Source of the DNA: Hydnum rufescens UP504
Taxonomy: Eukaryota; Basidiomycota; Agaricomycetes; Cantharellales; Hydnaceae
Direction: 5' to 3'
NCBI GenBank assembly: GCA_014904985.1
Contig: MU128926.1
Location: 84,644 to 148,643, forward strand
Length of the DNA stretch: 64,000 nucleotides
Below the pieces are notes generated by a model, which worked only from the letters and a program-made list of their open reading frames with translations, was not told the origin of the DNA and did no database searches. This document shows positions 739 to 36,076 of this stretch, one piece after another. Made by a program: the position numbers and the translations under genes. Numbering within the stretch: position 1 is the stretch's first letter; every line of letters begins with the position of its first letter.

Positions 739-1456
739 CTGCCTTTGCGCCTAAAGAACCAATGACCCTTCTCTCGGATTTGTTGGAACTCTTCATTCCC
801 TTGTTCATGTTATTCCAATACCGTGTAGCACCATCGCAGACACACCCCACACTGTTAGTAGCTCGAGAAAAATGAAGGGAACACCACTGCTGCTGAGCAA
901 AAACCCACCAGGACAATGTCTAATCACGGAAGCTCCATCACTATATATATTCATGTTATCTGCGGGGTGTTCCATTCAACGTCACGATGTAGTCATGCCT
1001 CTGCAGACGGTACAGCGTTCCCGGCTACACTGATCGAATCAGTCTCTTGACCAATCACAATTGGGCTACATAGTGCTATGGTCCCCGCTACGACACCATC
1101 CTTTACAAAATCAATCCTTATTTGTCAAAGCACTTCCTAGCGAGAGACTGATCAATCTAATTCCTGGAAAAATATACAAACTTGGCCTCTACAAGCCCTC
1201 TGACCAGGAAAAGAGGAGAGATGTTCTTACCACATTGCAGATATAGTAAATATCACTGACACGAATTAGTGGCTGTGCCAAGGCTCGAAGTGTCCTTGAC
1301 TCCATTTGCATAATAGTGCACAAAACCTCGGATCCGATGCTTGTCGCTCGGAAGGCTAATTTGGCCTTCCATATGAGGTTGGTAGGGTAGCGATATATAA
1401 CGGATCCCTCGCTCTTCACTTTCACATTTGTTCTTTCCTCTTCGTCTGCATCCAAT
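739..1456. other. Intergenic, nothing recognised
   Basis: No frame on either strand gives a recognisable protein. The stretch just before 1457 is the likely promoter of the AA14-like gene: a TATATAA-like string lies near 1394-1400, about 60 bp upstream of its ATG. Confidence 0.4.
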
Positions 1457-2795
1457 ATGATTGCAATCCTTGTGTCCGCCTTCCTTGGCTTAGCCGGAGT
1501 AACCCAAGCCCAGGTTGCTGCCTGGCATACGGGAATGTGTTTCCTAAACGTACGTCTTTCTCCATAGCGTTCTCGTAAAACACGATGCCCACTAACGCAC
1601 AACTCAGGGTACTTATCCAAACTACGATAACTCGAACACAAATAATGCAGTAATTCCTCTGTTTGTGTTGCTCAAGTCCCAATGGTGGTGTGAGCCCGTA
1701 GCTCGTATCGACTGTTATAAACCAATGCTGATTTATTTCCTCTCTTCGTTCATCACGATAATAAAGTTGGGAAATCTCGGTTCTATCTTGACTGTGCCAA
1801 CCTTGACCATTGGGCACCATTCAGTGTGACGAATTTACTCCAGCCCCTAGAGATTTCCTAGAATTGTCAGTTTTTCATCCTTCAGATATTACCGTGTGAT
1901 AACATCAATTGATTTCCTTCAGGCCCGCTGGAGGGAGCTTCACCGTGGAACTTGCAAATAATCGCGCTCAGATCACTCTGTCCTATGGCGGGAGAGCCAC
2001 ATCCGAATGACCGGACGGGCGTAATCATCCCGAGAATTATTCAATGCCCAATAATGGATGTATCGTCCAACCCAATCGTTAGTAAAAACCACTTTCAGGT
2101 TCGAATTGTTTACGCTGAACGTGACCGTATTGTTCGCACTAAGAACCAGAGCGATGCTGCGTGTACCGCATTTTCCATTTCGTATACGGCGAGCCCATCC
2201 ATCTCTGTCCCTCAAACCGATCACTCTGGGCTTGTCTAAATCCAACTGTACAGGGCGATCTCAAGGAGGTAACCCCGGAGAACCTTTCTGTATTTACTGT
2301 TCTCCACCAGTTGCGTCCAATTATGCCGGACGTGTGTTCGCCCGCTCTGAATGAATACTTTACAGCATCCCATGGAAGAGGATTTCCACCTACCGGGTGC
2401 CTGCTTACTTGCCTGCGTGTCCTGTAGGCGGATGCATTTGTGGACGGGGATGGCGCGAACACAATTGCGTTCCGCCTTCGTGCATTTCCCTTGTAATAAA
2501 GTTCCTGACCCCGATATTTCCACTCTAGGGTACCCAACGGCTGCGGGATACCCAATATGTACATGCCCCCGTATGGATGCCGGTCTCCAGTTCAAACAGC
2601 ACGAAGACCGTTGCACCTGCGAAACCGCCTGTATGGTGTGAAGAGAAGCCTTCGGATTGCATCCCGGGCTCCAAGCAAATCATATTCTGGAGCCAGTTGG
2701 ATGGAAAAAATACTATTACTACAGGTTGGCAAGCCGATGGTGTGCCAAAAAGCCCTGGGCACAACACGAAGATGGGTTTCCACAACAGTTTGTGA
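1457..2795 (+). pseudogene. AA14-like secreted protein gene, broken
   Basis: The ATG at 1457 opens a signal peptide (MIAILVSAFLGLAGVTQAQ) followed by AAWHTGMCFLN. Short exons then give pieces matching the order of basidiomycete AA14-like secreted proteins: QCDEFTPAPRDFLELPAGGS, an ELANNRAQITLSYGGR segment, NQSDAACTAFSISYT, VTPENLSVFTVLHQLRP, ACPVGGCIC with its cysteines, VPNGCGIPNMYM, and AKPPVWCEE near the C-terminus. Two lesions are visible. The codon expected to be Trp in S-E-W-P-D-G is TGA at 2008-2010, and one base is missing after TGCCG near 2579, so the last exon is out of frame. AA14 enzymes are copper lytic xylan oxidases with His as mature residue 1; here the predicted mature end is not His, so even the intact ancestor may not have been an oxygenase. 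Intron borders (for example donor at 1688, acceptor ending 1922) are by eye. Confidence 0.65.
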
Positions 2796-4379
2796 CGTTT
2801 CGTATTGTTCTTTAATTGTAGCATGAGTTGAACTTAAAATTATTCGATAGGCGCTCAGAATGACATCTTCCTGTACGGAAACCACTAGCCTATCGCGACG
2901 GAGTCCTGGGCGCTTACTTTATATCTCCCCGTAGTCCGTCAGACACGGCTCCACCCAAGAATCTCTCATTGTTCTCGTCACTAAGGTGGCATGGGCAGGC
3001 ACGTAGGATGCCATTTTGATAGCAGATCGTGCTTTTTTTGTTATCTCCGAATGCATTTCACCCTCACTTGGGAGTGTAGACACCCCCAAACATTCTTTCT
3101 TGTGTCACACGATCGTATACGGCGAATGTATTTCCATTTGCAGCATCAATATTTTTTTGGAGCAAGAATGAGACGTACGCGTGCTTGAATTCAAGTGGCT
3201 CAAAATGCATATGATGGAGAGCGATGGTTTGTAATTTCCAAATTTGGTCATGCCCGCTGCTGGACGGAGGTGGAGGCTCGACTCGTGGTTCTCCTGCGAA
3301 TGGAATTCTGAATTTTGGGCATGAATGAACTTGTCTGTTTTCTCCAGTTCCAAACCTCTTGGCGGAAATAGTCCGCAGCCGAGTCTGATCAGCCCAGCTT
3401 CGGAGGTACCGACCGGGTGTCGGAGGCGCCAACGGAGCACATCAGAGGCGCCAAGATGCAGCAGCTGGCTCAGAAGGTCAGCCGACAATGCGGCGCCTTA
3501 TCAATGCTTCCAGTTGGTCCCGCATTGTCCTCCTCGGTGATCTATCGCCCACAAACCACTATATTTACGCTGTGTAAATACTTCGTTGATCTGTACCAAT
3601 CATAACTTTCTACAAAACCTGCGCATTTAGCTGCCGCAGCTGGAAATATCTCCGCATTCGCCAATGCAGCATTTATCACCACGCAAAGCAAAGAGCCATG
3701 TAAATTAGAGCCTTGGGACCATAGCGAGGCATTCAGTGTGGTACCCCTATTGTACGATTATATTGCCACCAGTTCGGGAAATGCCGAATTGAATAATTCA
3801 ATTTAGAGCCGTGCGCCCTGCAAATGTCGGGAGGTAAATAACAAACCAAATAGTCTGTGTGGCGGTCGATCGAAGACTGAGTTCACCACGAACCAGCGCT
3901 GTTTGCCCCTTTTTGGTCATCTTGGTTTTCTGAGTGTCTCTCTGGACTTCCAGTGAGAAACGCGGGACACGTGCGAAATTCAGAAGCGTGGCTTTCCCTT
4001 AACGCAGGAATGGGTGCAAGGGATAGAAAATAAATCACGCAACAGACATGGATTGAGCAAATCCCCAACTACAATACTGACCTAACAAGCCGTGTGTTTC
4101 ATTCTTGCGTGTTATATAGACACAATTGCATTCTGATAAATATAATACCTCCGAGAGATCGATTCGCAAGTAATATACGCGGCAGGCGTGTGGAAACAAT
4201 GTGGAGTAGACAGATGGTGACGATCCTCTTTGATGGGCTGGTATCAGCTTGTGGACACCCTTCCGCTCCTGCAAGAACTTCAGCTGGAAGTTAAAGATGC
4301 TGTAGTCCCTGGTCCTTGATGATACCAAGAACGGTTTGCAGCATTTATCAAGGTTTCGGCGTCTTCCATGAAAATTCAC
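2796..4379. other. No convincing gene
   Basis: Several overlapping frames of 60-127 codons exist on both strands. The least implausible is on the minus strand at about 3064-3488, but it has no recognisable domain. There are no TE ends, tandem repeats or RNA genes that I can see. Confidence 0.3.
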
Positions 4380-5560
4380 ACTTTCTCGAAATTTCTCTTG
4401 GCGCGAGCCGCTTCTTCAAGGTCATGCTGTGAGCACTCGCCAGGACGTGGCAAGGTCGGAATGAAGCTTGCGAAGGGTTAATTGCCTCTGAATCATGCTT
4501 GGGTAGCAGCACGTTGGTTGACTTCTTCTCAATGATCTTCCATTTCCTTCACAAACTTGGAAATGCGCCACTCAAATTCCTGGACACACTCGTCCCATTT
4601 CTTTAGTTCGTGTTGCAATCCTTTAGGATTGGGGACCATTGAGTACTGGTCATGGACGAGTAAGAACTTGTCTGATCTTTCGCCACCCGATGGACATTGT
4701 CAGGCTCGTCGATGCTCAAGTTGAGTCCTGCACGAGCCGTGTGGCATTGGATATTGCAGCAGGTGAGTGTGGTTGTACGTTCTCGTAACCGTTTTCACTC
4801 TCAAGTTCGATTGTTCTCGTCGTTGAATGATGGCCTCTAGCAGGGCATTTCGCTCCGAAACCTTGCGGTTCAATACGCTATTCTCGACTTCAAGCTTATG
4901 GGGTTCGTATCTCCACCGTTCCCTGCTGGGCAAGTTCCTGGTCGCAATTCCTCGGGAGTTTTATCTCGCGCCCTGCTGCTCTTCCTGATAAATTTGAAAC
5001 GCATTCAACGGTAAGAAAGATTACAAGATGCCTACAGCTGGGCGGAAACATCATCAAAGTTTGCCTCGAGATCTGAAGTGGCCTAGCTGGTCCCTGAGGA
5101 AGCCAGATCTGCTTCCAGATCTTTCATATCTTTTTGAAGACGATCAACCACCTTTTGCGTTCGGATGACAAACGTCGTGTTTGTTTTTTAGGGTTTGCAA
5201 GTCCCAAAGCTGGGCCCTGGCACTCTGCCGGTGCCCACAGGAGTCCCAGTTAGCATCGAGACAACGAAAAATTCGAGTTCTCACAGCTTCGATATTTGAT
5301 TTTGATTCTGTTGGCCGAGAGCGGGGAGCTCTCTATTCTCGAGTTTGTCTGGCGCAGCGTCTTTTGGTAAGACTGCCTGTAGTCCTCGCAGTTCGTTTTC
5401 CCATGTTTTGGTGTCTTCCCGTAGCTGGGACAACCCGACCGCACTGGCATTTTGGATACCTTCCCAAAGCTCCATACGGTTCAAAGACAGGCCTCTGTTG
5501 TCGGACAAAAAGATACTGTAGCTGATGAATAATCGGTGCGGAGCCACTTAGATTCGCACA
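4380..5560 (-). pseudogene. Relic of a long coiled-coil protein gene
   Basis: On the minus strand short frames give heptad-rich, highly charged peptides with no continuous frame: LQHELKKWDECVQEFEWRIS (about 4560-4620), LEVENSVLNRKVSERNALLEA (about 4830-4900) and a stretch near 5080-5165 reading VVDRLQKDMKDLEADLAS. Stops and frame changes interrupt it every 100-200 bases. A related copy lies on the plus strand at 12627-13260 (EVDRLQEEIKDLDANLASSR), which fixes the reading direction here and shows both derive from one coiled-coil gene. Parent family not recognised. Confidence 0.5.
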
Positions 5561-6019
5561 ACAACAAGAACGATAGAGCGTTTGATCAGAGCTCAAGCAA
5601 ATGCTGACGGAACTTCGGTACATCCGAGAAAGTATACTAAGCAATATGCTGACTAAGCAATGAGCGCTAGAGCTCGCACTTCCAGTTCCAACAGTAGCTG
5701 CACTTGAACTCACAACGAACGACGGGATGGATATGAAGGGCGACCTTCGAGATTATACTTAAAATCGATAGTTCAAAGAGAGAAGGCTGCGGCGAGTGAG
5801 CCTTGCTCAGTCTCAACGGTGGTATGTATGTGAAGAAAGGCTGCCAGTGGTCCACTCCCTAGATGTCGTAGCGGTGGCATCCCCGACCAAAGTGAAGGAA
5901 ACAAGAATGCAGTGCCGTCAGGTCTGTCAGTGAAGTCCGACCCACAAAAACCACCTATGAGTTTTGCTATGGGATGGATTGTGAGTAATACTGGAACTAG
6001 GAAGGAGAAAACTTCGTGA
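5561..6019. other. Spacer before PIK1 relic A, nothing recognised
   Basis: No frame longer than about 60 codons with recognisable content. This is the 3' side of the minus-strand PIK1 relic. Confidence 0.3.
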
Positions 6020-9000
6020 GGGTATTTTTGAGAAATAACGAGAAATCGCTCGCACCGAGTCATATAGTCTGGTGCATGCGGACCCCATCGAACTCATTAT
6101 TAGTCGATCCACATGATCCCCCACAGCGGAATGCGGTAGCCTCTGCAGGAATCGGTCCCGCAGATGTTGGGGCGTCTGCTCACCAAAGGCAGAAAAGCGC
6201 AGCAACGTGGAATCTGCGGCGAGTGGACCTGGATATGTGGTCCCGGCGAAGCCTATAATGCATTAATTCCGCGATTGCTGCAGGAATAAACATAAGTTAG
6301 ATCAGGTTAGGGTCCCCAAGCTGGGAGCATGCATAGATAGAGGGCGAAATATTGCTGATGACGCTGTCGCAGTGCTTTCGCGCTGTCTCGAAGGCCTCTC
6401 GGGAGCAGGCGTTTAAACTCGTTGAATGGTTCACGGTCGACTCCACTGAGCACCTCGACAGACTCTATCGAGAACTTGAAGGGTGCCGCTTCGAAGCCCG
6501 TATTCCTGGGGGAGTTACTCAGCAGGAAACCAAAATCGAGGTGAATTAAGCGCCTAGATAGGAGGGCTAGGTACGACCGGGTCGATCATTGACTGCACGA
6601 TACGTTCGATGAAAAAAATACTGGCCCTTCTCGATTTAATAGAATATTCTTATTATCTGGATCTTTGGCCTGCAAGGAATGTGTAACTACAGAAGACCCT
6701 ATGTTGTAAACGGGCATATGTCAGTATGGGGCACTGAACCAGACGTTCTCTACTCGCCTGCGAGTTAGTTCATAAAACATCTCTGTGCGCGAGAAAATTT
6801 GGCCGAGGAAGCGTCCCCATAAGTCTTCAGAGAGGGGCCATGATTAAGTATCTATTACAAAGGAAAAACGGGGAAAACATCGCCATAAGAGCAATGAAGT
6901 GATCCATCAATGTGACGTGGCCAAACCGACCCTCTGGGAGACGTCGGGCATATTCTGCCTTTTTGATAGAATGGATAGATACGGTGTCTTTGACCGTCTC
7001 CACCAATTCAGAATTAGTTCCCAATGAGGCTTCGGAAGCTATAAACAGTACAGAGGGGTCAGTGTGGTGGCGGAAGAACCCTCGATGATGAGATAGAGCC
7101 CACTGTCGGGACGGTGGTCAGCGCCAGTTTTGACAATAACTGACAAGCACTGTATGAAATGGAGGTAGATTCAGGCTCAAACAACCCGTGCTTTTTTCGT
7201 AATCCACGATTCTCGGAAGACACCCGCTATCATCAATCAGATCATGACAAAAAGCAAAGCATGAGCACAGGAATACCAACGTGATACACTCCACGTCAGT
7301 AACGTCGGAGAACTCACCCGAGGGGTCCACTCTTTAATTCGCGCCGCACGAACCCTTCATCGTCTACCGTCTGGGCATTTACTTGACGTTCCCAATCCCA
7401 CCGTGACCACGTTCTCTGGCGTCTCTTCATGAGCTCCACATGCTCCTCCTCCAGCGGCATCATCTCTTGCATGATCTTATCACGAATAGCAGTCGCCTCG
7501 GCGCGCTGCAATTTCGTCCGCATCGGAGCAGCGACCTGTTGCGTGGCAGCATCGTTCACACTACAGGGACGTGACCCCGTGACCCAGTTCAGCACCGCGC
7601 TGGACCATGGGGGATCGAGCTGTTGTGGGGGGAAGGCAATGGTGACGATGGCTTCCCGAACGATATTTGCATTGAGGTGCACCAACATGACGGCCCCAGT
7701 TCGCGTTCTTTCCGAGTGGTCCTCGAGGGATAAAACCCGATGATGTGAGTGTCCCGTATCGTTTGAAATGCTGTGGCGGGGGAAAGAGGGGATGAGGGGC
7801 ACGACAGGAGGCGATCTGTTGCGTGTTCAGATTGAAGGTGTGCGGAGACGTGGAATGCGATGATGGGGCGGACTATGTTGAGAGCTTTTTTCTTAAGCGT
7901 AGGGGGAAGGACGACGGAATCTGAAAGCTCGGCAGGTTGAGTACGGATGAAAGATCGGTCCCGTAGAGTTGTTCCGCGAAGTCTATTTCTCCTTGCAGCT
8001 CGAAACGTCCTTGCGCTAGTGAAGGAGTAGTTGGAAATGATACAGACTCGGCGATCGTAAAGCTGGCTACCACAATGTGGTGAGCCGACGACAGGCGCGA
8101 ACGACTATCAAGAAATGAGGCTTTCCGGTGGCCCTCCGCAGTGAATTCGGATCAAGTGGCTGTCCAGTGTCAGACCGTCGGGGCCGTTGCATCTTGTGTT
8201 CCTCGGCGATGATTCCCCTTAGAATCTCTTGGTTTGCGTGCTTCAGTGGAACGAAATCAAGCTCTCTGATGGGGATTTCGATGGGAATGTAGGGCAAGCT
8301 TCCAGCCGAATTTAGGACCACGCACTCCCCGGGAGGTATACGAACGATGCGATCGCGCGCACGGTCCGGACTCTTTGAAGCATGAATCGGACTGTCTGCA
8401 CCAGACGTCCAACTTAGGATATCCACCTATACACAGAATAAGACGGCCCACTAAAATAGAACGGAAGGTTTCCTCACTTCAACAAGTCAACTATGATTCA
8501 GAACAGTCAATTCCGCGCAAAGCGCACTTACTCTCTGGAGACAAGATGGGCTATCCGACCGCAAGTTTTGGCTCCACTAGCAGTTGATTGAATACATTCT
8601 CGAGCGCGAGAAACTGGACTTGTGAACGACAATAATGGCTCTGAAGGAGCTGCGACGTCACAGGATCCAAATGCTGCGTGATGGAGGTCCCGAGTGATAG
8701 CGATAGCGTAGATTGGGACAGAAGTGATTGCAAATTTCCCATGGTTCGACCCGTCCGTTTACGAACGAGTGCTGGACCTTTCATGGCGGTGACCGGAGTT
8801 TTTCGGGAAAGACTGAAGGCCATGGTCGACGTTTGTCCAAATGTATGGGTGTCTTCTTCCTCGGAAGACTCCCCTTCATCATCGTCTCCGTCTGACCCTG
8901 GTAATTGATTGGCGGTGATGTACTTGAACCCGGGACGTTTGCTACATAGTCTGCATCATCAGTAGTGCGAAAGGGATGTGACGGTCGAACGTCATCCGCG

Positions 9001-22922: not shown

Positions 22923-23325
22923 CATCAATTACAACCTTCATTTAGTGGATGTGTAGAAAAATGATTGTTTATTCGAAAAAATATCGATGGGGATCGTCTG
23001 GGGTTACTGCGTCGGTCATTGCCCATTGAAATAAATAATTTGCTTCCGCTCCATCCACCGCCATCCACCTGTGCCCTCCGGGCGGGATCACTGCGCGGGA
23101 CAGCAGACAGCCCCAAATAGTGCCATTACACGAAAAATCAGCCCGCCGGGGCTGCCCATTCACTCTGGGCATTCAAAAATGGCGGGATTTCCTTACTTGG
23201 AAATCACTGTTAGTTCAGGCGCACCTTTCGTTGGGCACTGCAGCCCGTTACAGTGCTTTTTTTGCTGCCAATTCCTGGCACTACACAGCATGCATTTACC
23301 TCTACATTACAGTACACATACATAA
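22923..23325. other. Spacer between X copy 3 and the repeat region
   Basis: No gene seen. From about 23195 on the sequence is repeated, inverted and with many small differences, at about 33070-33099, so the duplicated flank of the copia insertion begins here. Confidence 0.4.
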
Positions 23326-23655
23326 TTGAAAAGACGAAAGTTTAAAAGAAATCTACAAAAAAGAAGATTGCGCACGTCCGGCGCCTACAGGCACCGGGCA
23401 CATGATCTAATGGGTGAGGGGAAGAATCCCAGGAGCCCATGCACACTACACAGTGTGTGGATAGGCTCCTTTGTTTACTCGTTAATCGCGATCTTGCGCC
23501 GGTACTTCATTAGTACCATCCGTCGGGGCATTCGCCCCTCACGAATTTCGAGATCCAAGACGACGAGTAAAAATCGTCGTCGTTTGAAGTGCCGGCGTTG
23601 AGTCTCCCAAGAACGTAACCATACCCAAGCCCGAACGCGGCGCCCCAGAAGCAAG

Positions 23656-23747
23656 GTAAGTAATCTATGTATACTAGTGCGAAAGGAGCTGCTCCTTTTG
23701 CAGTGGTTTAAATTTTGTATTGATGCGAGATTAGTTTTCATTCGTAG
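23656..23747 (+). other. Hairpin-bearing intron-like unit
   Basis: Donor GTAAGT, acceptor CGTAG, 92 nt, with a short P1-type stem near 23679-23699. An inverted copy lies near 32540-32630. Confidence 0.5.
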
Positions 23748-23939
23748 ATATATTATCATAGCCAACACATGCCCGCGCCTCAAGAAACGACGATAACGAT
23801 GACGATTGTGATGACGGCATCGCCGTCATTGTCGATTGCGGATCTCATGACCCCGCCGAAACCAAGAATGCGAAGAACAATACTGAGCGTACTCTAAGGA
23901 GCACACCACACCCCAGCGGTGCTGGGGTGTGGTGATCAG

Positions 23940-24039
23940 GTAAGTCCCCCTTCTCTCGTGCGAAAAGGGCAGCTACAAGCTGCCCTTTTTGTGCTCCTTT
24001 ACTTCTTTACTAATAACTTGATGTATGTTGTTATAATAG
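23940..24039 (+). other. Hairpin-bearing intron-like unit
   Basis: Donor GTAAGT, P1 stem with GGGC/GCCC core, branch-like TACTAATAAC, acceptor ATAATAG; 100 nt. An inverted copy lies at about 32232-32334. The copia target-site duplication overlaps its acceptor AG. Confidence 0.55.
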
Positions 24040-24042
24040 GGA
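24038..24042 (+). repeat. Target-site duplication AGGGA (left)
   Basis: AGGGA directly before the LTR at 24043 matches AGGGA directly after the LTR ending at 36076. The inverted LTR at 31909-32230 is also bordered by TCCCT, the complement. Confidence 0.8.
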
Positions 24043-24367
24043 TGTTGGAGCGAGTGGATACGGAAGCGACCGGGTACGATGTCGGAGACAAGCGCGACCC
24101 CTGTGAGGCTATGCCGACGACCTCGCCAATCATCAATCCGCCAATCTAGCTAAAACCTGTAGCCGAGTTTCACCGGCGATCTTTTACCTCTTTGTTTTGC
24201 TGGCACCACCGGCAGTCGGACATTCTTTTTCTTTTCTCTAACCCATTTTCATGTGTCTTCTACCCTCCTGTAAATACTATAAAAAGTCGGGCTTAGGCCC
24301 TCTAAATGCTAGGGACTTCTCTTAATCAGGGGGAGTTGTTCTCGCGCGCATACCATAACTCTCACTA
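24043..24367 (+). mobile_element. Copia LTR 1
   Basis: 325 bp, from TGTTGGAGCGAG to CATAACTCTCACTA, nearly identical to LTR 3 (35752-36076, also 325 bp). It contains a TATAAA-like string (CTATAAAAAG). It is followed at 24368 by GGTTATGGGCCCA, complementary to the anticodon arm of initiator tRNA-Met, the primer site known for Drosophila copia. Confidence 0.85.
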
Positions 24368-24443
24368 GGTTATGGGCCCATCGCTGCTCTCTTAAAAGAA
24401 ACACATTTACCCCCTATTTTTTCCATCACTAGAAAAGATCACT

Positions 24444-24566
24444 ATGAGCGACGAATTCAAGATTCGGGTTATGAAATTGGCGGCAGATGGTACGAACTGG
24501 GTCACATACCGCGACCGGATTATGTGGGCCCTCGATGCGAAAGGGCTCCTTGAGCCAGCCTGGTCA
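24444..24566 (+). pseudogene. Copia gag, first about 40 codons only
   Basis: The ATG at 24444 starts MSDEFKIRVMKLAADGTNW and continues to KGLLEPA, a copia gag N-terminus. The sequence leaves the element at about 24566, where an inverted-repeat element begins. The matching minus-strand copy is at 31609-31833. Confidence 0.75.
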
Positions 24567-24571
24567 GTCAC

Positions 24572-24633
24572 ATGGGGGACCTAATTTAGGTACCATTTTT
24601 GGGGCAGAAAATGGTACCTAATAGGTCCCCCAT
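24572..24633. repeat. Foldback inverted repeat at the gag breakpoint
   Basis: ATGGGGGACCTA (24572-24583) pairs with TAGGTCCCCCAT (24622-24633), and inside them TAGGTACCATTTT pairs with AAAATGGTACCTA, leaving a small loop near 24600-24608. This may be a MITE-type terminus or a hairpin produced at the break. More small hairpins with GGCCAAAATATGGCC follow to about 24665. Confidence 0.65.
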
Positions 24634-24777: not shown

Positions 24778-25422
24778 TGTCAGGGTCCATCCGCTTCTTT
24801 TCCGATAACTCCAGTTTGCTTCCGATTTGTCTCCGGTGCTCTCCGGGCTCCGTCAGTTTATTTCTTCTTGTTTCCGTTTGTTTCCATTTGCTTCCGAGTT
24901 CGTTCTGTCACGTTTCATTTCTCTTTCATTTCCTTTGATTCCGAGTTACCCACGCTAGTACCTGTCCTTGTTCCTGGCCGCTCCCCTGTTCCTGTTTCCA
25001 CCTCCTTGTAACCACCCTCCCCTTGATGATCACTCCCCTCGTAGTATAGCTGTCCTGTATAAGTAGTCCAGGGGCGAAGTCCAGAGGCCTCAGCTTTGGT
25101 CTCTCAGGATTTCCGCTATTACCCCGGACTACAGGTTTGTCCTTGTACTTCCTTATGTCTTCTATGAAAACTCAGGATTTCCGCTATTACCCCGGACTAC
25201 AGTTCCGAGTGTGTTCCAGCTAACTCCATGAGCTTAAGGACCGTCGTGCTCCTTTCCGCCTAGACCCTTCCGGGCTGCTGGAACTCTCTTCTATCTTCCT
25301 CCGTTCTCTTTATCTCAGCCTTGCCCGGATTCCTCCGGACTAAGCCGGACTTACACCGGACCTAGTCGGACTTATCCGTGTTTATAGTTGTTTGGTGCTC
25401 TCGTCGCAGCGTGGCCCTGACA
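24778..25422. mobile_element. Solo LTR, 645 bp
   Basis: Begins TGTCAGGG and ends CCCTGACA, so the ends are inverted repeats with TG...CA termini. It is flanked by CCCGG on both sides (24773-24777 and 25423-25427), a 5-bp target duplication. Inside are a TATAAGTAG promoter-like site (about 25057) and two direct copies of a 30-bp string starting CTCAGGATTTCCGC (about 25107 and 25169). No coding remains, so the internal part was presumably lost by LTR-LTR recombination. Superfamily not determined; the length fits Ty3 or Ty1 types. Confidence 0.75.
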
Positions 25423-25648
25423 CCCGGGGTCTGCCACCACAGGGGGGGTATAGTTCCTGCAGGTCACGCACCTGCATATACCCACCACACCTGGGTGGGG
25501 TTCATATGCCCTGGTCGGGGCCGGGTCCATTTGGGCGCTCCCTCGAGGGAGCGGTTTTCGTTCGTGGGGGCTTGTTTGCGGTTTTCGTTTGCGGCGTGTC
25601 ATTCGGCGAGTTTGTGGTTGGGGGTGTATGCGGGTTCTGGTTCAGGAT

Positions 25649-25763
25649 CTAGAGAAATTTAAAATGAAACATTAGCAGAACAGTAATGCAGTGCAAAAAG
25701 AGCAGCTTATGCTGCTCTTTTTGCGCCACAAGAATACAAAATAAAAACAAAAACAAAACATAC
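25649..25763 (-). other. Hairpin-bearing intron-like unit
   Basis: Minus strand: donor GTATGT, P1 GCAAAAAGAGCAGC/GCTGCTCTTTTTGC with loop TTAT (25693-25724 on plus), branch-like TGCTAATG, acceptor CTCTAG. Confidence 0.6.
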
Positions 25764-25948
25764 CTTGCAGTACCCCACACCCACTGCAGCAGGTGCAGGG
25801 TACTGGGGTCCTGTACTCCGGCTCGTACGGCGGGTTGTATGGGTCCTCCCTGCAGTTTTTGTTTGTGGGGGGTCATTCGCGGGTTTCGTTCACGGCATGT
25901 CGTTCCGTGGGTTTGTGGTTGGGCGTTCGCGCGGGTTCTGGCCAGGAT

Positions 25949-26056
25949 CTAGAGAAATAATAATAGGTTAGTTGAAAATGAATGCAACGCAAAAAGAGCA
26001 GCGTATGCTGCTCTTTTTGCACCACAAGAATAAGAAATAAAGAAAATAAAACTTAC
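25949..26056 (-). other. Hairpin-bearing intron-like unit
   Basis: Donor GTAAGT, P1 with 4-nt loop (25989-26020), branch-like CAACTAAC, acceptor CTCTAG. P2 at 26062-26096 in the upstream exon is a perfect palindrome. Confidence 0.6.
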
Positions 26057-26215
26057 TTTGTAGTACCCCACACCCGCTGCAGCGGGTGTGGGGTACTGGG
26101 GTCGTGTACTCCGGCTCGTACGTACCGCGGTTTGTACGTCCTCCCTGCGGTTTTCGTTTGTGGGGGGTCGTTCGCGGGTTTGTGGTTGGGCGTTCGCGTG
26201 GGTTCTGGCCAGGAT

Positions 26216-26322
26216 CTAGAGAAATAATAATGGGTTAGTTGAAAATGAATGCAACGCAAAAAGAGCAGCGTACACTGCTCTTTTTGTGCCACAAGAATAA
26301 GAAATAAAAAAATAAAACTTAC
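26216..26322 (-). other. Hairpin-bearing intron-like unit
   Basis: Donor GTAAGT, P1 near 26256-26287 with one imperfect pair, branch-like CAACTAAC, acceptor CTCTAG. P2 at about 26328-26362. Confidence 0.6.
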
Positions 26323-26490
26323 TTTGTAGTACCCCACACCCGCTGCAGCGGGTGTGGGGTACTGGGGCCATACTCCGGCTCATATGTACGGCGGTTTGGA
26401 TGGGTCCCCCCAGGTCCGTCGTTCGGGCGTCGATAGGCGGGGTTATCGGGGGGTTTTGCGTCGGTATTCGTTGGCGCGAGAAGTGAGGAC

Positions 26491-26602
26491 CTACAATAGA
26501 ATAAAAGGTTGTAAATTAGTTAAGAATTAAACGCCACGCAAAAAGAGCAGCTTTCGCTGCTCTTTTTGCGCGGCTGTAGCTACTGGGGGGGTAGGGACTC
26601 AC
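26491..26602 (-). other. Hairpin-bearing intron-like unit
   Basis: Donor GTGAGT, P1 at 26538-26569, branch-like TTAACTAAT, acceptor TTGTAG. P2 at about 26611-26645 (CACACACCCGCC/GGCGGGTGTGTG). Confidence 0.6.
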
Positions 26603-26682
26603 CTTATATAGGACCACACACCCGCCATGGCGGGTGTGTGGTTCCTGGGGCCCTTATTTAGCGCAGGTCGCGTCCTCGTTTG

Positions 26683-26775
26683 GCGTGTTGCCGTGTGTCG
26701 CGTCGTTTGGCGCGTTGCCGTGTGTCGCGTCGTTTGGTACGTTGTCGTGTGTCGCGTCGCTTGGCGCGTTGCCGT
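26683..26775 (+). repeat. 27-bp minisatellite in a module exon
   Basis: Three to four imperfect copies of a 27-bp unit containing GTGTGTCGCGTCGTTTGGCG. On the minus strand, the sense of the array, it reads as arginine-rich peptide repeats (RQRAKRRDT). It enlarges the exon 26603-26856 compared with its neighbours. Confidence 0.7.
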
Positions 26776-26856
26776 TTGTTGGGTTGCCGTGTCGCGTTGC
26801 CGTTTGGGCCCTCGTCATTTCGCGTGTTTTGGTTGTGCCTTGGACCAGGCCTCAAT

Positions 26857-26969
26857 CTAGAAATAATAAATGATAAAAGACGCGTTAGTATAAAATTTCA
26901 AAGCAGCGCAAAAAGAGCAGCTTTCGCTGCTCTTTTTGCGCCGTTGTATCCACTAGCAAAAAAACTCAC
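26857..26969 (-). other. Hairpin-bearing intron-like unit
   Basis: Donor GTGAGT, P1 at 26908-26939, branch-like ATACTAACG, acceptor TTCTAG. P2 at about 26975-27006 with a GC-rich loop. Confidence 0.6.
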
Positions 26970-27067
26970 CTTGTGACCACACACCCGCAGCGGGGGGTGT
27001 GTGGTCGTTTGGTTGCCTTTCCAGGCGGTTGCCTGTTGTGGTTCGCGGAGATTCGAAGGAAGATGAA

Positions 27068-27718
27068 AACTCAACGCCGGCAATTGCCGGTACCCAAAAA
27101 GCGCCCCAAGTGCTGGCGCTACAAGTACAATACATAGTAATAGCAGGTATATAGACATGGAATAAATCAATATTCAGTGAATATTTTCCCAAAAAAATGA
27201 AAAAGACAGCAATAGTAAGTTAGAGCTCAATAAGGCACGATATCCCTAATTGCAAAGTGGATTGGGCCATTTCTATGGGTCAGAATTGGCCCAAATTTAA
27301 ATATGTTCATGGTATATATGCACCCTGCATAGGCGACTAATTATACCGGACGTTCCTGCCATTTTTCAATTTTTCACGCCTTCAATTCCCTAAATAGGGA
27401 ATTGAAGGCGTGAAAAATTGAAAAATGGCAGGAACGTCCGGTATAATTAGTCGCCTATGCAGGGTGCATATATACCATGAACATATTTAAATTTGGGCCA
27501 ATTCTGACCCATAGAAATGGCCCAATCCACTTTGCAATTAGGGATATCGTGCCTTATTGAGCTCTAACTTACTATTGCTGTCTTTTTCATTTTTTTGGGA
27601 AAATATTCACTGAATATTGATTTATTCCATGTCTATATACCTGCTATTACTATGTATTGTACTTGTAGCGCCAGCACTTGGGCGCTTTTTGGGTACCGGC
27701 AATTGCCGGCGTTGAGTT
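27068..27718. repeat. 651-bp near-perfect palindrome
   Basis: The left arm 27068-27393 is the reverse complement of 27394-27718 with a single-base difference (CCCC near 27104-27107 against GGG at 27680-27682) and almost no spacer (CCCTA-AA-TAGGG at the centre). The arms are AT-rich at the centre and contain no gene. It sits exactly between the minus-strand and plus-strand module arrays. It could be a foldback element, a bidirectional start region, or a fold-back assembly artefact. Confidence 0.85.
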
Positions 27719-27793
27719 GAGTCAACCGCACATAATGAACAGCCGCCCAGAACGACGACCACATGCCCGCCGCTGCGGGTGTGTGGTCAAAAG

Positions 27794-27904
27794 GTGAGTT
27801 TTCTTTAATCCTAGTAGATACAACGGCGCAAAAAGAGCAGCGAACGCTGCTCTTTTTGCGTTGCTTTGAATATCATTGCTAACATCATTACTTTATTATT
27901 TTAG
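27794..27904 (+). other. Hairpin-bearing intron-like unit
   Basis: Donor GTGAGT, P1 27828-27859 with loop GAAC, branch-like TTGCTAAC, acceptor TTTTAG; 111 nt. Confidence 0.6.
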
Positions 27905-28103
27905 ATCATGGCCTGCTCTGGGGCGCCAAAAAGACCCGCCAACAACCAGGGCCTGAACAGCCACGGTCCGAACGACAACAGGAACAGAATACGCGACAAA
28001 CAAGAAGACACTAGACGACGAGGCCACGACACGTGAGAACGCGCCCACCGACTGGCTACGCGAACCACACACCCGCTGCGGCGGGTGTGTGGTTCTATAT
28101 AAG

Positions 28104-28205
28104 GTAAGTGATGTCGTGTACCTCTAACAGCGCAAAAAGAGCAGCCAATGCTGCTCTTTTTGCGCTGGTTTCAATTTTTAACTAACGTATCATCTATTAT
28201 TCTAG
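28104..28205 (+). other. Hairpin-bearing intron-like unit
   Basis: Donor GTAAGT, P1 28132-28163 with loop CAAT, branch-like TTAACTAAC, acceptor TTCTAG; 102 nt. Confidence 0.6.
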
Positions 28206-28430
28206 ACCATCGCCTCAACCATCAGAAGCAAATGAAGACCCGCCCAACGAACCCCCCCTGAAACGATAGCCCACGCGCCACCCGCGAATCGTAACCCGCC
28301 GAAACCGTGCCAGAAGACACGAACCACGCACCCGCTTCTGCGGGTGCGTTGGTTTTAAGGTAGGTATCAGTACCGTCACGCAAAAGGAGCAGCCTAGGCT
28401 GCTCCTTTTGCGTGGCTTTTCTTAAAGAGA

Positions 28431-28720: not shown

Positions 28721-28745
28721 NNNNNNNNNNNNNNNNNNNNNNNNN
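28721..28745. other. Assembly gap (25 N)
   Basis: Run of N. Frames drawn through it are meaningless. Confidence 1.
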
Positions 28746-31608: not shown

Positions 31609-31833
31609 TCATCCAAAGGCTGGGAGTGGTGTGATTTCGCGTTTTCTGATACTGGATGTTTTTATCTTCCACACCATACCGGCAGCGCTATAGTCTGACG
31701 TAATCACGTCACTCATAAGGTGCTCAAGGAGCCCTTTCGCATCGAGGGCCCACATAATCCGGTCACGGTATGTGACCCAGTTCATACCATCTGCTGCCAA
31801 TTTCATAACCCAAATCTTGAATTCGTCGCTCAT
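31609..31833 (-). pseudogene. Copia gag N-terminus (inverted copy)
   Basis: MSDEFKIWVMKLAADGMNW to about residue 55 on the minus strand, same start as at 24444, then a stop. It belongs to the inverted LTR 2. Confidence 0.75.
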
Positions 31834-31908
31834 AGTGATCTTTTCTAGTGATGGAAAAATAGGGGGTAAATGTGTTTCTTTTAAGAGAGCAGCAATGGGC
31901 CCATAACC

Positions 31909-32230
31909 TAGTGAGAGTTATGGTATGTGCGCGAGAACAACTCCCCCTGATTAAGAGAAGTCCTAGCATTTAGAGGGCCTAAGCCCGACTTTTTATAGTA
32001 TTTACAGGAGGGTAGAAGACACATGAAATGGGTTAGAGAAAAGAAAAGAATGTCCGACTGCCGGTGGGTGCCAGCAAAACAAAGAGGTAAAAGATCACCG
32101 GTGAAACTCGGCTACAGGTTTTAGCTAGATTGGCGGATTGATGATTGCGAGGTCGTCGGCATAGCCTCACAGGGGTCGCGCTTGTCTCCGACATCGTACC
32201 CGGTCGCTTCCGTATCCACTCGCTCCAACA
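31909..32230 (-). mobile_element. Copia LTR 2 (inverted)
   Basis: 322 bp, reverse complement of LTR 1 and 3 with a few small indels. It is preceded on its own strand by AGGGA and followed by the same GGTTATGGGCCCA primer site. Confidence 0.85.
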
Positions 32231-33099
32231 TCCCTATTATAACAACATACATCAAGTTATTAGTAAAGAAGTAAAGGAGCACAAAAAGGGCAGCTTGTAG
32301 CTGCCCTTTTCGCACGAGAGAAGGGGGGACTTACCTGATCACCACACCCCAGCACCGCTGGGGTGTGGTGTGCTCCTTAGAGTACGCTCAGTATTGTTCT
32401 TCGCATTCTTGGTTTCGGCGGGGTCATGAGATCCGCAATCGACAATGACGGCGATGCCGTCATCACAATCGTCATCGTTATCGTCGTTTCTTGAGGCGAG
32501 GCATGTTGGCTGATGATCAATATAGTCAGAATGAAAAACTAATCTCGCATTCATACAAAAATTTAAAGCCACTGCAAAGAGCAGGCTCCTGTCGGCTGTA
32601 GGTAGTATACATAGATTACTTACCTTGCTCTGGGCGCCGCGTTCGGCTTTGGTATGGTTTACGGTTTCTTGGGAGATCTCAACCCGGCCGCGCACTTCAG
32701 AACGACGAGCGATTTTTACTGTCGTCTGATCATCGTAAATTCGTGAGGGGCGACGCCCGACGGAATGGTAATACTAATGAATTACCGGGCGCAAGATCCG
32801 ATTAACGAGTAAACAAAGGAGCTATCCACACATGTGTAGTGTGCATGGGCTCCTGGATTCTTTCCCCTCCCATTACGATCATGGACCCGGTGCCTGTAGG
32901 CGCCGGACGTCGCAATCTTCTTTTTTGTAGATTTTCTTTAAACTTTCGTCTTTCAATATATGTATGATGTACTGTAATGTAGAGTAAATGAGCAATCTGC
33001 TGTAGTGCCAGGAATCTGGCAGCAAAAAAACGCACTGTAACGTGCTGTGCCCAACGAAAGTGCGCCTGACCTAACAGTGATTCCAAGTATCTCTCTCCT
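32231..33099 (-). repeat. Inverted copy of the copia left flank
   Basis: Reverse complement of about 23195-24042, including the two hairpin introns (acceptor side at 32232, donor near 32335; second donor near 32625) and P2 at about 32340-32368. Differences are mostly one- to few-base indels. Confidence 0.75.
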
Positions 33100-35745
33100 A
33101 GGAAATTCATACAGACGTTTGGGGCCCATCACCCCTAAATTCATTGGGTCGGACGATCTTATTACATCACATTTACAGACGACGCCACGAGATATACGAA
33201 ACTTCGGCTATTACATACGAAGGACGAGGCACTCGATACTTACAAAGACTTCGCAGCTTGGGCGAAGACGCAGCACAGAGTCCAAATTAAATGGCTTCGA
33301 TCTGACGTGCGGAGGCGAATACACAAGTCATGCATTCACGAAGTTTCTAGGGGATCAGGGCACAGAGCGCCAATTAACCACCCATGATACTCCCCAGCAC
33401 AACGGAGTCGCCGAATCATTGAATCGGCGGATTCTTGAACGAACTCGCGCTATGCTGCATCAATCCCAGCTGCCGAAAAATCTCTGGGGCGAGGCTGTGA
33501 ATTGGGCCATCTGGCTCAAAAACCGTACTTCTACTCGTGTCTTAGGCCATATGACGCCACTCGAACGGCTTACGAAGGAAAAGCCGAACCTCGTGAATAT
33601 CCCTATTTGGGGCCAACGAGTCTGGGTTCACAACGACTCTGGATCGAAATTGGATGAACGCACGAATGAAGCCTTTTGGGTGGGCTATGATAACGACAGC
33701 CCACATGCTCACAGAACTTACTGGAAGGGAAGGAACAAAATATCTGTTGAACGTAATCGTAAAATTCACTACCTCGACAATTGACATTTCTGTCGATCCC
33801 CCAGTTACGAGCTCAAGGCTGCGGATAGATCCCCTGCCGACCTCCAACAACTCTCCAGATCCCGAAGACTCAGACGACGCCAAAACCCTAAATTCTAGGC
33901 CAACTACCCCTGCCAAACCCCCTCCTATGCCAAAACAGACCCCACCCGCTGAACCCGAATGACGCTCCACACGTGTCCCCAAACCGTCTCAATATGTGCA
34001 ATGCCTTGCACAGGGCGAAGGTACAGTTCATGGATACACACACAAATCCGACTCTCAGATCCCCGGCGTCAGGGGGAGCAGTGATAATATCGGCAAGAAT
34101 TCAGCATCTCTCGTAAATGACGCCGTATATCATATAGAATTTAACGACGCAGCTTTTGCAACGATTCAAGATATCGACAGTGATCCAAAATCTCTGGAAG
34201 AGGCGAAGTCACTGAACGGATTGGCCACAATGGAAAAAGGCCATCGATATCGAACTCAAAACCGATCAAAGACGCCGGAACTTGGGACGAAGTACCAAGG
34301 CCACCCGGCAAGAATATTGTCGATTGCAAGCTTGTATTCAAAATCAAATGAAAAGCTGATGGAACCATTCTAAAGTACAAGGCACGTCTAGTTGCCCGCG
34401 GTTTCACACAGATTTATGGCATTGATTACTACGAAACATATTCCCCCATCGCGCGACTCGCAAGTTTTCGGACGATTATTGCGTTCACTGCCTGAAACAA
34501 TTGGGATATCGACTCTTTCAATTTCAACAGTCGCATACCTCAATGGCGAACTTGACGAGAACGAAGAAATTTATATGAATTTCCCCCCCGAGTACAGACC
34601 CCAGGGGGAGAATACAATCCTACACCTACAGAAGACTCTGTACGGTCTTAAGCAAGCCGGACAGCGATGGTACGACTCATTATCCCGCGCACTCAATAGT
34701 CTCGGTTTTAGCGCAAGCCATGCCGATCCCGGTGTGTTCCATACCCAGAAAGATGGGGAGGAATTAATTTTGGCAATCCATGTGGACGATTGCACGTTTA
34801 TGGGCCCGTCGAGGGCATTGCTTGACGAATACAAGCAGAAAATCAACGAAAAGTACTCGATTACCGACTTAGGGCCACTCCATTGGCTACTCGGCGTTAA
34901 AATCGAGCGAGATCGTGAACTACAGACAATCTGATTATCACAGACATCGTACATTGACTCGATTGTTTTGCGGTTCTCACTCAGTGACTCGAAACCCATT
35001 AATACCCCAATGGAACCCAGGGCCACACCCACTCGAGAGGATTCTGCGATGAATCCCACAGATATTGAACGAATGAAGCAGACCCCCTATCGCGAGGCCA
35101 TAGGGAGCCTTATGTATGCATCCGTGGCCACGAGGCCGGACATTACTTTTGCGGTATCGACGCTATCGCAGTTCCTTGACAGGCCGGGACCCACACACTG
35201 GGAGGCGGCAAAACGAGTTATACAGTACCTATCAATGACGAAGAGTCTTAGCCTGACATATGGGTTAAAACAACACGACCTACTCGGGTACATGGATGCG
35301 GATGGAGCAATGCAGGAGCACCGTCACGCAATAACGGGATACACTTACCTGATAGACGGAGGAACCGTCTCCTGGAGCTCCCGAAAGCAGGAGCTGATCA
35401 CACTCTCGACGGCTGAGGCAGAATATGTCGCCGCAACTCAAGCTGCCAAGGAAGGCATTTGGCTACGAGGCCTCATTGCCGAAATATTCCATACTCAACT
35501 CAAAGCCACAACTCTATATTGCGATAATCAAGCCACATTAAAGCTTGCAATGGGCGATAATTACCACGCCCGGACGAAACATATCGATATCCATTTTCAT
35601 TTTATCCGCGAGACGATTAAAGACGGCATTTTCAATTTGGTCTACTGTCCCACAGAGACTATGACGGCCGACATTCTTACAAAATCCCTCGGGGTGACAA
35701 AATTGAATTTCCACGCCGAAGGACTCGGACTACGTCGCGCTTGAG
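33100..35745 (+). pseudogene. Copia integrase, reverse transcriptase and RNase H
   Basis: The plus strand starts abruptly at the integrase core (HTDVWGPSP at about 33109-33135). It continues with GGEYTSHAF and PQHNGVAESLNRR (33315-33430), a reverse transcriptase with LYGLKQAGQRWYDSL (about 34640) and HVDD (about 34778-34790), and an RNase H end with SSRKQELITLSTAEAEYVAA and RTKHIDIHFHFIRE (35380-35620), stopping at 35742-35744. A stop at 33782, a TGA at 33960, frameshifts around 33970-34500 and a TGA near 34932 interrupt it. A polypurine tract TTGAGGGGGAG precedes LTR 3. The 5' half is at 28746-31833 in inverted orientation. Confidence 0.8.
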
Positions 35746-35751
35746 GGGGAG

Positions 35752-36076
35752 TGTTGGAGCGAGTGGATACGGAAGCGACCGGGTATGATGTCTGAGACAA
35801 GCGCGACCCCTGTGAGGCTATGCCGACGACCTCGCCAATCATCAATCCGCCAATCTAGCTAAAACCTGTAGCCGAGTTTCACCGGCGATCTTTTACCTCT
35901 TTGTTTTGCTGGCACCACCGGCAGTCGGACATTCTTTTTCTTTTCTCTAACCCATTTTCATGTGTCTTCTACCCTCCTGTAAATACTATAAAAAGTCGGG
36001 CTTAGGCCCTCTAAATGCTAGGGACTTCTCTTAATCAGGGGGAGTTGTTCTCGCGCGCATACCATAACTCTCACTA
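35752..36076 (+). mobile_element. Copia LTR 3
   Basis: 325 bp, same length and ends as LTR 1, following the polypurine tract. The next five bases are AGGGA. Confidence 0.85.

Follow-up and report, generated by a model that had tools for sequence, protein, structure and literature searches.

The locus analysed here, within a window of 64,000 nucleotides (the whole stretch of DNA examined) from Hydnum rufescens UP504, represents, in rearranged form, a non-coding cut-and-paste DNA transposon, a type recognised in related copies by their terminal inverted repeats (TIRs), by target-site duplications and, for one insertion, by a natural empty site. The observations as a whole are best explained, with reasonably good confidence, by a high-copy non-coding DNA transposon with modules predicted to be spliced outward, which is probably moved by a KDZ transposase. 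Each module combines an intron containing a hairpin, P1, with a preceding exon ending in a second hairpin, P2. The genome apparently harbours hundreds of copies of the family. To our knowledge the element is undescribed, and a search of titles and the opening lines of abstracts found no such element.

The window copy starts with the left TIR CAGCCTGGTCAGTCA (24556–24570, plus strand), which is the outer end of the element and a boundary also found in the copies L025, L026, L027 and L029. The initial annotation had placed the start of the unit at 25428, which was wrong, since the unit begins at this terminal repeat. A subterminal hairpin with the core AGGTACC..GGTACCT (24572–24633) comes next, as it does after the TIR in copies of the window's kind, and recurs, on two contigs, in a terminus located on the 3′ side of a KDZ gene. 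By reading of the sequence, positions 24778–25422 hold a nested insertion, TGTCAGGG..CCCTGACA, with a 5-bp duplication CCCGG, at which L025, L026, L027 and L029 join; this insertion is probably a solo LTR. On the minus arm, the splice-signal script predicted introns 1 to 5 at 26857–26969, 26491–26602, 26216–26322, 25949–26056 and 25649–25763, and the repeat-family search placed the corresponding P2 exon-end hairpins, on the same strand, at 26975–27006, 26612–26643, 26330–26361, 26064–26095 and 25771–25802. The central palindrome (27094–27693), a putative two-way promoter judging from aligned half-arms of 22 elements, is followed by the plus arm. There the P2 hairpins found by the same search lie at 27757–27788, 28063–28094 and 28322–28353, and the predicted introns at 27794–27904 (intron 1, P1 at 27828–27859; script, P1 search and fold) and 28104–28205 (intron 2, P1 at 28132–28163; script and P1 search). 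Intron 3 starts at 28360 and is cut at an inversion breakpoint (28360–28423; script and alignment to copies). The seven complete introns predicted in the window are 102–115 nt long, with donor scores of 8–9 of 9, a branch site CTAAY or TTAAY and the acceptor TAG.

The seven complete introns (five minus, two plus) and the one cut off that had been annotated initially were all re-found by the script. P1 in each intron, P2 at the end of the preceding exon, the splice signals and the divergence of two arms from a central palindrome of about 600 nt were likewise confirmed, and the exon parts recurred along with the introns in the repeat-family search, as had been claimed. The eighth, partial intron retained its donor at 28360, without an acceptor, and its truncation is caused by the inversion. 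Up to 28423 the window copy is approximately 95% identical to L025, a fuller copy. The segment 28452–28720 (minus strand) is inverted relative to L025 and L029, aligns in reverse to L025 4818–4545 and adjoins a run of N at 28721–28745; the inversion may be a misassembly. The window copy had been treated as whole, and its right TIR was not found by the TIR motif search.

Related copies are bounded on both sides by the TIRs CASSYTGGTCAGYCA. The exact TIR motif occurred at 1295 sites in the genome (634 + 661), compared to 3 (1 + 2) for the reversed control. Of ten repeat pairs, three, belonging to elements of 4.6–6.9 kb, were flanked by target-site duplications of 7–8 bp: GATGTTC in L017 (7/7), a duplication matching at 6/7 in L027, and CAAATTCC in L025, which matches at 8/8 and, when scored by 7-mers alone, differs at 3 places. 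The other seven TIR pairs, including the whole-looking L010 and L029, had no duplication, and some of them span nested or recombined copies. The L027 element (768–6216, 5449 bp) is inserted in what we take, by eye, to be a retrotransposon gene. The left flank of this element had 39 other genomic matches, all of which ended at query base 152–170, the element edge being at 168, and L026 represents the natural empty site for this one insertion examined, uninterrupted and with the two flanks overlapping. The whole unit was therefore inserted. A new non-autonomous element had been among the initial guesses, and the TIRs, target-site duplications and empty site uphold it. These boundaries also bear on the reading that the intron itself is mobile and spreads introns into genes as introners do. 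The genome's thousands of similar introns would agree with it, as would the TIRs and duplications that some introners have according to excerpts of PMC9860276, but the TIRs and duplications here enclose a whole array of 10–12 introns and not single introns, the element boundaries do not coincide with intron boundaries, and the exon parts repeat together with the introns. All ten P1 of the window are furthermore located in exon-intron modules, and an introner-type origin is accordingly very unlikely.

In the 63.2 Mb genome of the fungus (539 contigs), P1 (n = 4070) and P2 (n = 3786) were detected at up to 2 mismatches, and the centre had 518 candidate places, 40 of which were scored. A looser P1 search in 21 sources gave 242 sites compared to 165 at 2 mismatches, and nine of ten TIR-bounded stretches contained 10–12 P1, the tenth 18. 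Scaling by these two figures leads to a rough estimate of about 6000 modules and about 500 elements in the genome. The sources were a non-random selection, L005–L024 having been taken from the P1 places listed first on contigs C1–C6, and L025–L029 being those copies whose centre most closely resembles that of the window copy. Among 284 P1 in 26 sources, 239 had a P2 on exactly one side, 44 had none and a single one had P2 on both sides. The 64-kb window itself contained 8 P1 sites at up to 3 mismatches, with none in 100 shuffles, and two looser copies at 23960 and 32281. P1 was absent from viral contigs (n = 0). Two exact matches in prokaryote genome contigs had no P2, resembled intrinsic terminators and were taken as chance. 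Rfam gave 10 matches in the region 20–36 kb, all below gathering scores; the seven strongest were microRNA models on the central palindrome and were regarded as chance matches on a long hairpin.

The splice signals of the modules are confined to one strand. With the strand of the P2 side defined as sense, and with a strict test demanding a donor score of at least 8 of 9, a branch site and an acceptor, these three were found in order in 147 of 239 sense modules and in 0 of 239 antisense modules; the other 92 modules failed the test on the sense strand. P2 itself was excluded from the donor search, as GTGTGT inside P2 would otherwise be chosen as donor in 62 of 209 P2-armed introns. The commonest forms were AAGGTGAGT and AAGGTAAGT for the donor, CTAAC for the branch and TCTAGG for the acceptor, and the median intron length was 104 nt (n = 172). 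Exons and introns differed strongly in T content (14.6% and 37.3%, respectively), and exon A content was 30.7%.

The pairing of P1 was conserved, with 91.6% of cells paired in 123 representatives and double changes in 15 of 17 pairs (shuffles: mean 7.9, maximum 12); when the partner was slid by −1, as many as 16 pairs had double changes, but only 35.9% of cells were paired. One folded module had a z-score of −7.7 and 0 of 200 shuffles were equally stable. When CpG pairs were left out, G-U pairs in P1 outnumbered A-C pairs by 176 to 55, with an excess in 22 of 26 sources, the opposite in 1 and ties in 3, where the sources are not independent trials because of their shared ancestry. The outer pairs account for much of this excess; when they were set aside, the P1 core had 57 G-U and 35 A-C (16 sources vs 5). 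For P2 the count over all pairs by cluster was even (146 vs 146), and in the non-CpG core only it was 71 G-U to 35 A-C (16 sources vs 4). The test rests on orientation only: a C-to-T change hits both strands of a palindrome alike, and an excess of G-U on the sense strand therefore points to RNA. As G-U exceeded A-C in 22 of the 26 sources, P1 probably folds in transcribed RNA. Together with splice signals on one strand only, the tolerance of P1 for G-U over A-C strongly implies outward transcription of the arms, at present or in the past, with removal of their introns by the spliceosome. The element thus looks built to make two multi-piece spliced RNAs. The spliced structured RNA suggested as a possibility in the initial annotation is supported by the one-strand splice signals and the G-U excess of P1.

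The arms diverge from a central inverted repeat, 27094–27392/27395–27693, with 299 nt per arm and 98% complementarity. Half-arms from 22 elements (44 arms) had conserved blocks in common upstream of their first P2, and by eye some of these blocks resemble CCAAT and TATA boxes; the centre may be inferred to be a two-way promoter. The similarity of the two arms within an element ranged from 0.69 to 0.93 with a median of 0.87 (22 elements), compared to a median of 0.75 (5–95% range 0.58–0.88) across elements. As arms within an element are more alike, the two sides are suggested to convert each other. This same likeness would also be expected if the structure served at the DNA level only, with palindromes perfected by hairpin-templated repair and aiding foldback recombination, and with the splice signals as relics; L036, another element with the same ends, forms a near-perfect palindrome that lacks both P1 and P2, and fits such an account as well. 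It is nevertheless unlikely, given that splice signals occur on one strand only in the modules tested, that DNA pairing does not predict the G-U excess of P1, and that exons and introns differ so clearly in T content.

Another account of the hairpins is that of small-RNA precursors, in which Dicer would cut P1 and the array would act as a hairpin factory, perhaps directed against transposase or silencing. The predicted P1 helix has a median of 24 pairs and a 95th percentile of 34 (98 folded representatives), the stem is conserved and the loop variable among the genome-wide P1 sites, and the repetition of P1 10–12 times in nearly every TIR-bounded stretch would suit such a factory. In roughly one in four representatives, however, the folded helix has 17 pairs or fewer, the conserved core alone amounts to 14 pairs, and P1 has no known target, so this role is also improbable. 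In the predicted fold, P1 shortens the median distance between donor and branch site, which is 78 nt, to 33 nt (63 measurable representatives). The further suggestion of the initial annotation, that the RNA may regulate its own splicing by self-pairing, was considered as far as this predicted fold.

The exons look non-coding. The lengths of 113 internal exons, some of which contain an intron missed by the rule, were divided nearly evenly between remainders 0, 1 and 2 modulo 3 (37, 35 and 41), and stops were found in 87 (frame 0), 80 (frame 1) and 95 (frame 2) of these exons, compared to about 95 in shuffles. Fourteen arms from seven sources were spliced in silico, L012 and the window being without both ends found, and in 12 of these the longest frame was within the maximum of 50 shuffles. 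The two that were slightly above were L017 plus (165 vs 163) and L027 plus (131 vs 124). A coding role, in which the exons of each arm would specify a repetitive protein, is accordingly highly improbable: the introns look real, two frames hold somewhat fewer stop-containing exons than the shuffles and two arms just exceed theirs, but most internal exons hold a stop in every frame, their lengths keep no frame, and no Pfam match was obtained in the 10 frames scanned. These were 10 of 16 frames of at least 110 aa overlapping the L025 and L027 elements, and a KDZ transposase (PF18758) was likewise found in none of them.

KDZ matches were found elsewhere in the genome, at least 154 of them with 150 of 584 candidates scored, and those listed were all above the cut-off. 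In one locus, L038, the KDZ frame is 720 aa long and its neighbour carries a CxC1 domain. The ends of the element, CA..TG, and its 7-bp duplications agree with those of Kyakuja transposons, for which 7-bp duplications and CA..TG ends are described in excerpts of PMC12730594; one of the three duplications is 8 bp long, which is the length given for Zisupton in the same excerpts. The CAGGCTGGTCA motif was present 3′ of the transposase and correctly facing in four of six KDZ loci (on contigs C5, C2, C42 and C143), and was absent near the loci L031 and L032, within flanks of about 1.5 kb only. Of these four, L037 (C5) and L038 (C2) had been picked for a nearby TIR motif, which was not the case for C42, the best KDZ match, or for C143, which was fetched otherwise. 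The termini on C42 and C143 lie 1.7–1.8 kb past the KDZ match and share 56 of 72 aligned bases with the right end of the element; the similarity continues through the AGGTACC..GGTACCT hairpin, whereas C2 and C5 have the motif only. The C42 and C143 termini show no difference over 85 bases and are therefore treated as a single family. For the KDZ element on C2, a search upstream of the gene (L038 and L039) did not find the opposite end. From the CA..TG ends, the duplication length and the shared end hairpin, it is likely that a KDZ transposase of the Kyakuja type moves the element in trans, the KDZ loci having been read in part. The hAT dimerisation domain had 90 matches in the genome; hAT is not preferred as the mover, as no TIR motif was found at three such loci, whose flanks were short, and the end hairpin favours KDZ.

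The working of the element may be depicted as follows. The centre would act as a two-way promoter and drive outward transcription of both arms. P1 would fold within the intron and bring the donor near the branch site, as the fold model predicts, so that every intron splices fast, and P2 would isolate the exon end, while modules would multiply through unequal exchange. Good splicing could be retained for the following reason: stalled spliceosomes can trigger siRNA production in Cryptococcus, as stated in excerpts of PMC6643885, and by analogy a well-spliced transcript may be spared from silencing. Alternatively, good splicing might maintain transcription of the element and leave it accessible to the transposase. 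More tentatively, and possible rather than probable, the family may represent a transposon class whose cargo is a pair of selected spliced non-coding RNAs, in which intronic hairpins or splicing would shield the element against silencing or regulate the KDZ transposase, and in which modules, not genes, would evolve.

Non-autonomous transposons are usually regarded as empty shells with ends. Here, many modules retain full splice signals and paired hairpins without apparent coding, and an interior that looks built for two spliced RNAs is uncommon among transposons. The family makes a possible escape from silencing (RNAi) by good splicing directly testable, and its large natural set of variants of one intron lends itself to the study of how an intronic hairpin aids splicing.

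Foldback and other large non-autonomous TIR elements are likewise non-coding, with inverted arms, a palindromic centre and TIRs as boundaries; we know of no foldback element with exon-intron arrays as arms and splice signals on one strand. Introners similarly multiply intron sequence in one genome, some with signatures of DNA transposons (excerpts of PMC9860276 and PMC4457414), whereas the mobile unit here is the whole multi-intron element, and intron gain was not observed in any gene. The stwintron families of the Hypoxylaceae are also sequence-similar introns, some internally symmetrical, that spread in fungi; according to excerpts of PMC8469720 and PMC12403724 they are nested introns, in contrast to the exon-intron arrays in a TIR element found here. 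With the KDZ/Kyakuja transposons (PF18758) of mushroom-forming fungi, the element shares the CA..TG ends and the 7-bp (here 7–8 bp) duplications; on two contigs, moreover, a KDZ gene is followed on its 3′ side by a terminus that bears the motif and the AGGTACC..GGTACCT hairpin of the element. It differs from them in that no transposase was found inside, the interior consisting of spliced-looking non-coding modules, and in its clear TIRs, the Kyakuja families of Laccaria being reported without TIRs in excerpts of PMC12730594.

The window contains an inverted repeat of about 1.4 kb, the two copies of which (23194-24555 and 31722-33089) are 92.8% identical. One extra P2/P1 module, the unit of exon-end hairpin and intron hairpin, was found in each copy, at about 23905-24039 on the plus strand and 32234-32370 on the minus strand. 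The end of the left copy coincides with the start of the transposon. Two direct repeats (24039-24367 and 35747-36076), 99.1% identical to each other, are probably LTRs belonging to a young LTR retrotransposon that the element has interrupted. A retroviral SH3-like domain was contained in the frame 33047-33781.

The same TIR, CAGGCTGGTCAGCCA, was present at each end of another element in this genome, located at C9:315616-320711 (L036 117-5212). This element is itself a near-perfect palindrome with 100% complementary arms (849-2192 and 2243-3586 of L036); it harboured 300-nt repeats and neither P1 nor P2. KDZ transposases were very abundant in the H. rufescens UP504 genome, with 154 PF18758 matches (150 of 584 candidates scored), some with open frames of more than 800 codons.

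The exact P1 pattern also occurred in two bacterial metagenome-assembled contigs (L041 4442-4473 and L042 5662-5693), in both cases without P2; these intrinsic terminator-like occurrences are probably due to chance.

Inspected by eye, the modules of locus L006 appeared like those of locus L005 after numerous C-to-T and G-to-A substitutions at CpG sites, a pattern resembling the decay of methylated repeats.
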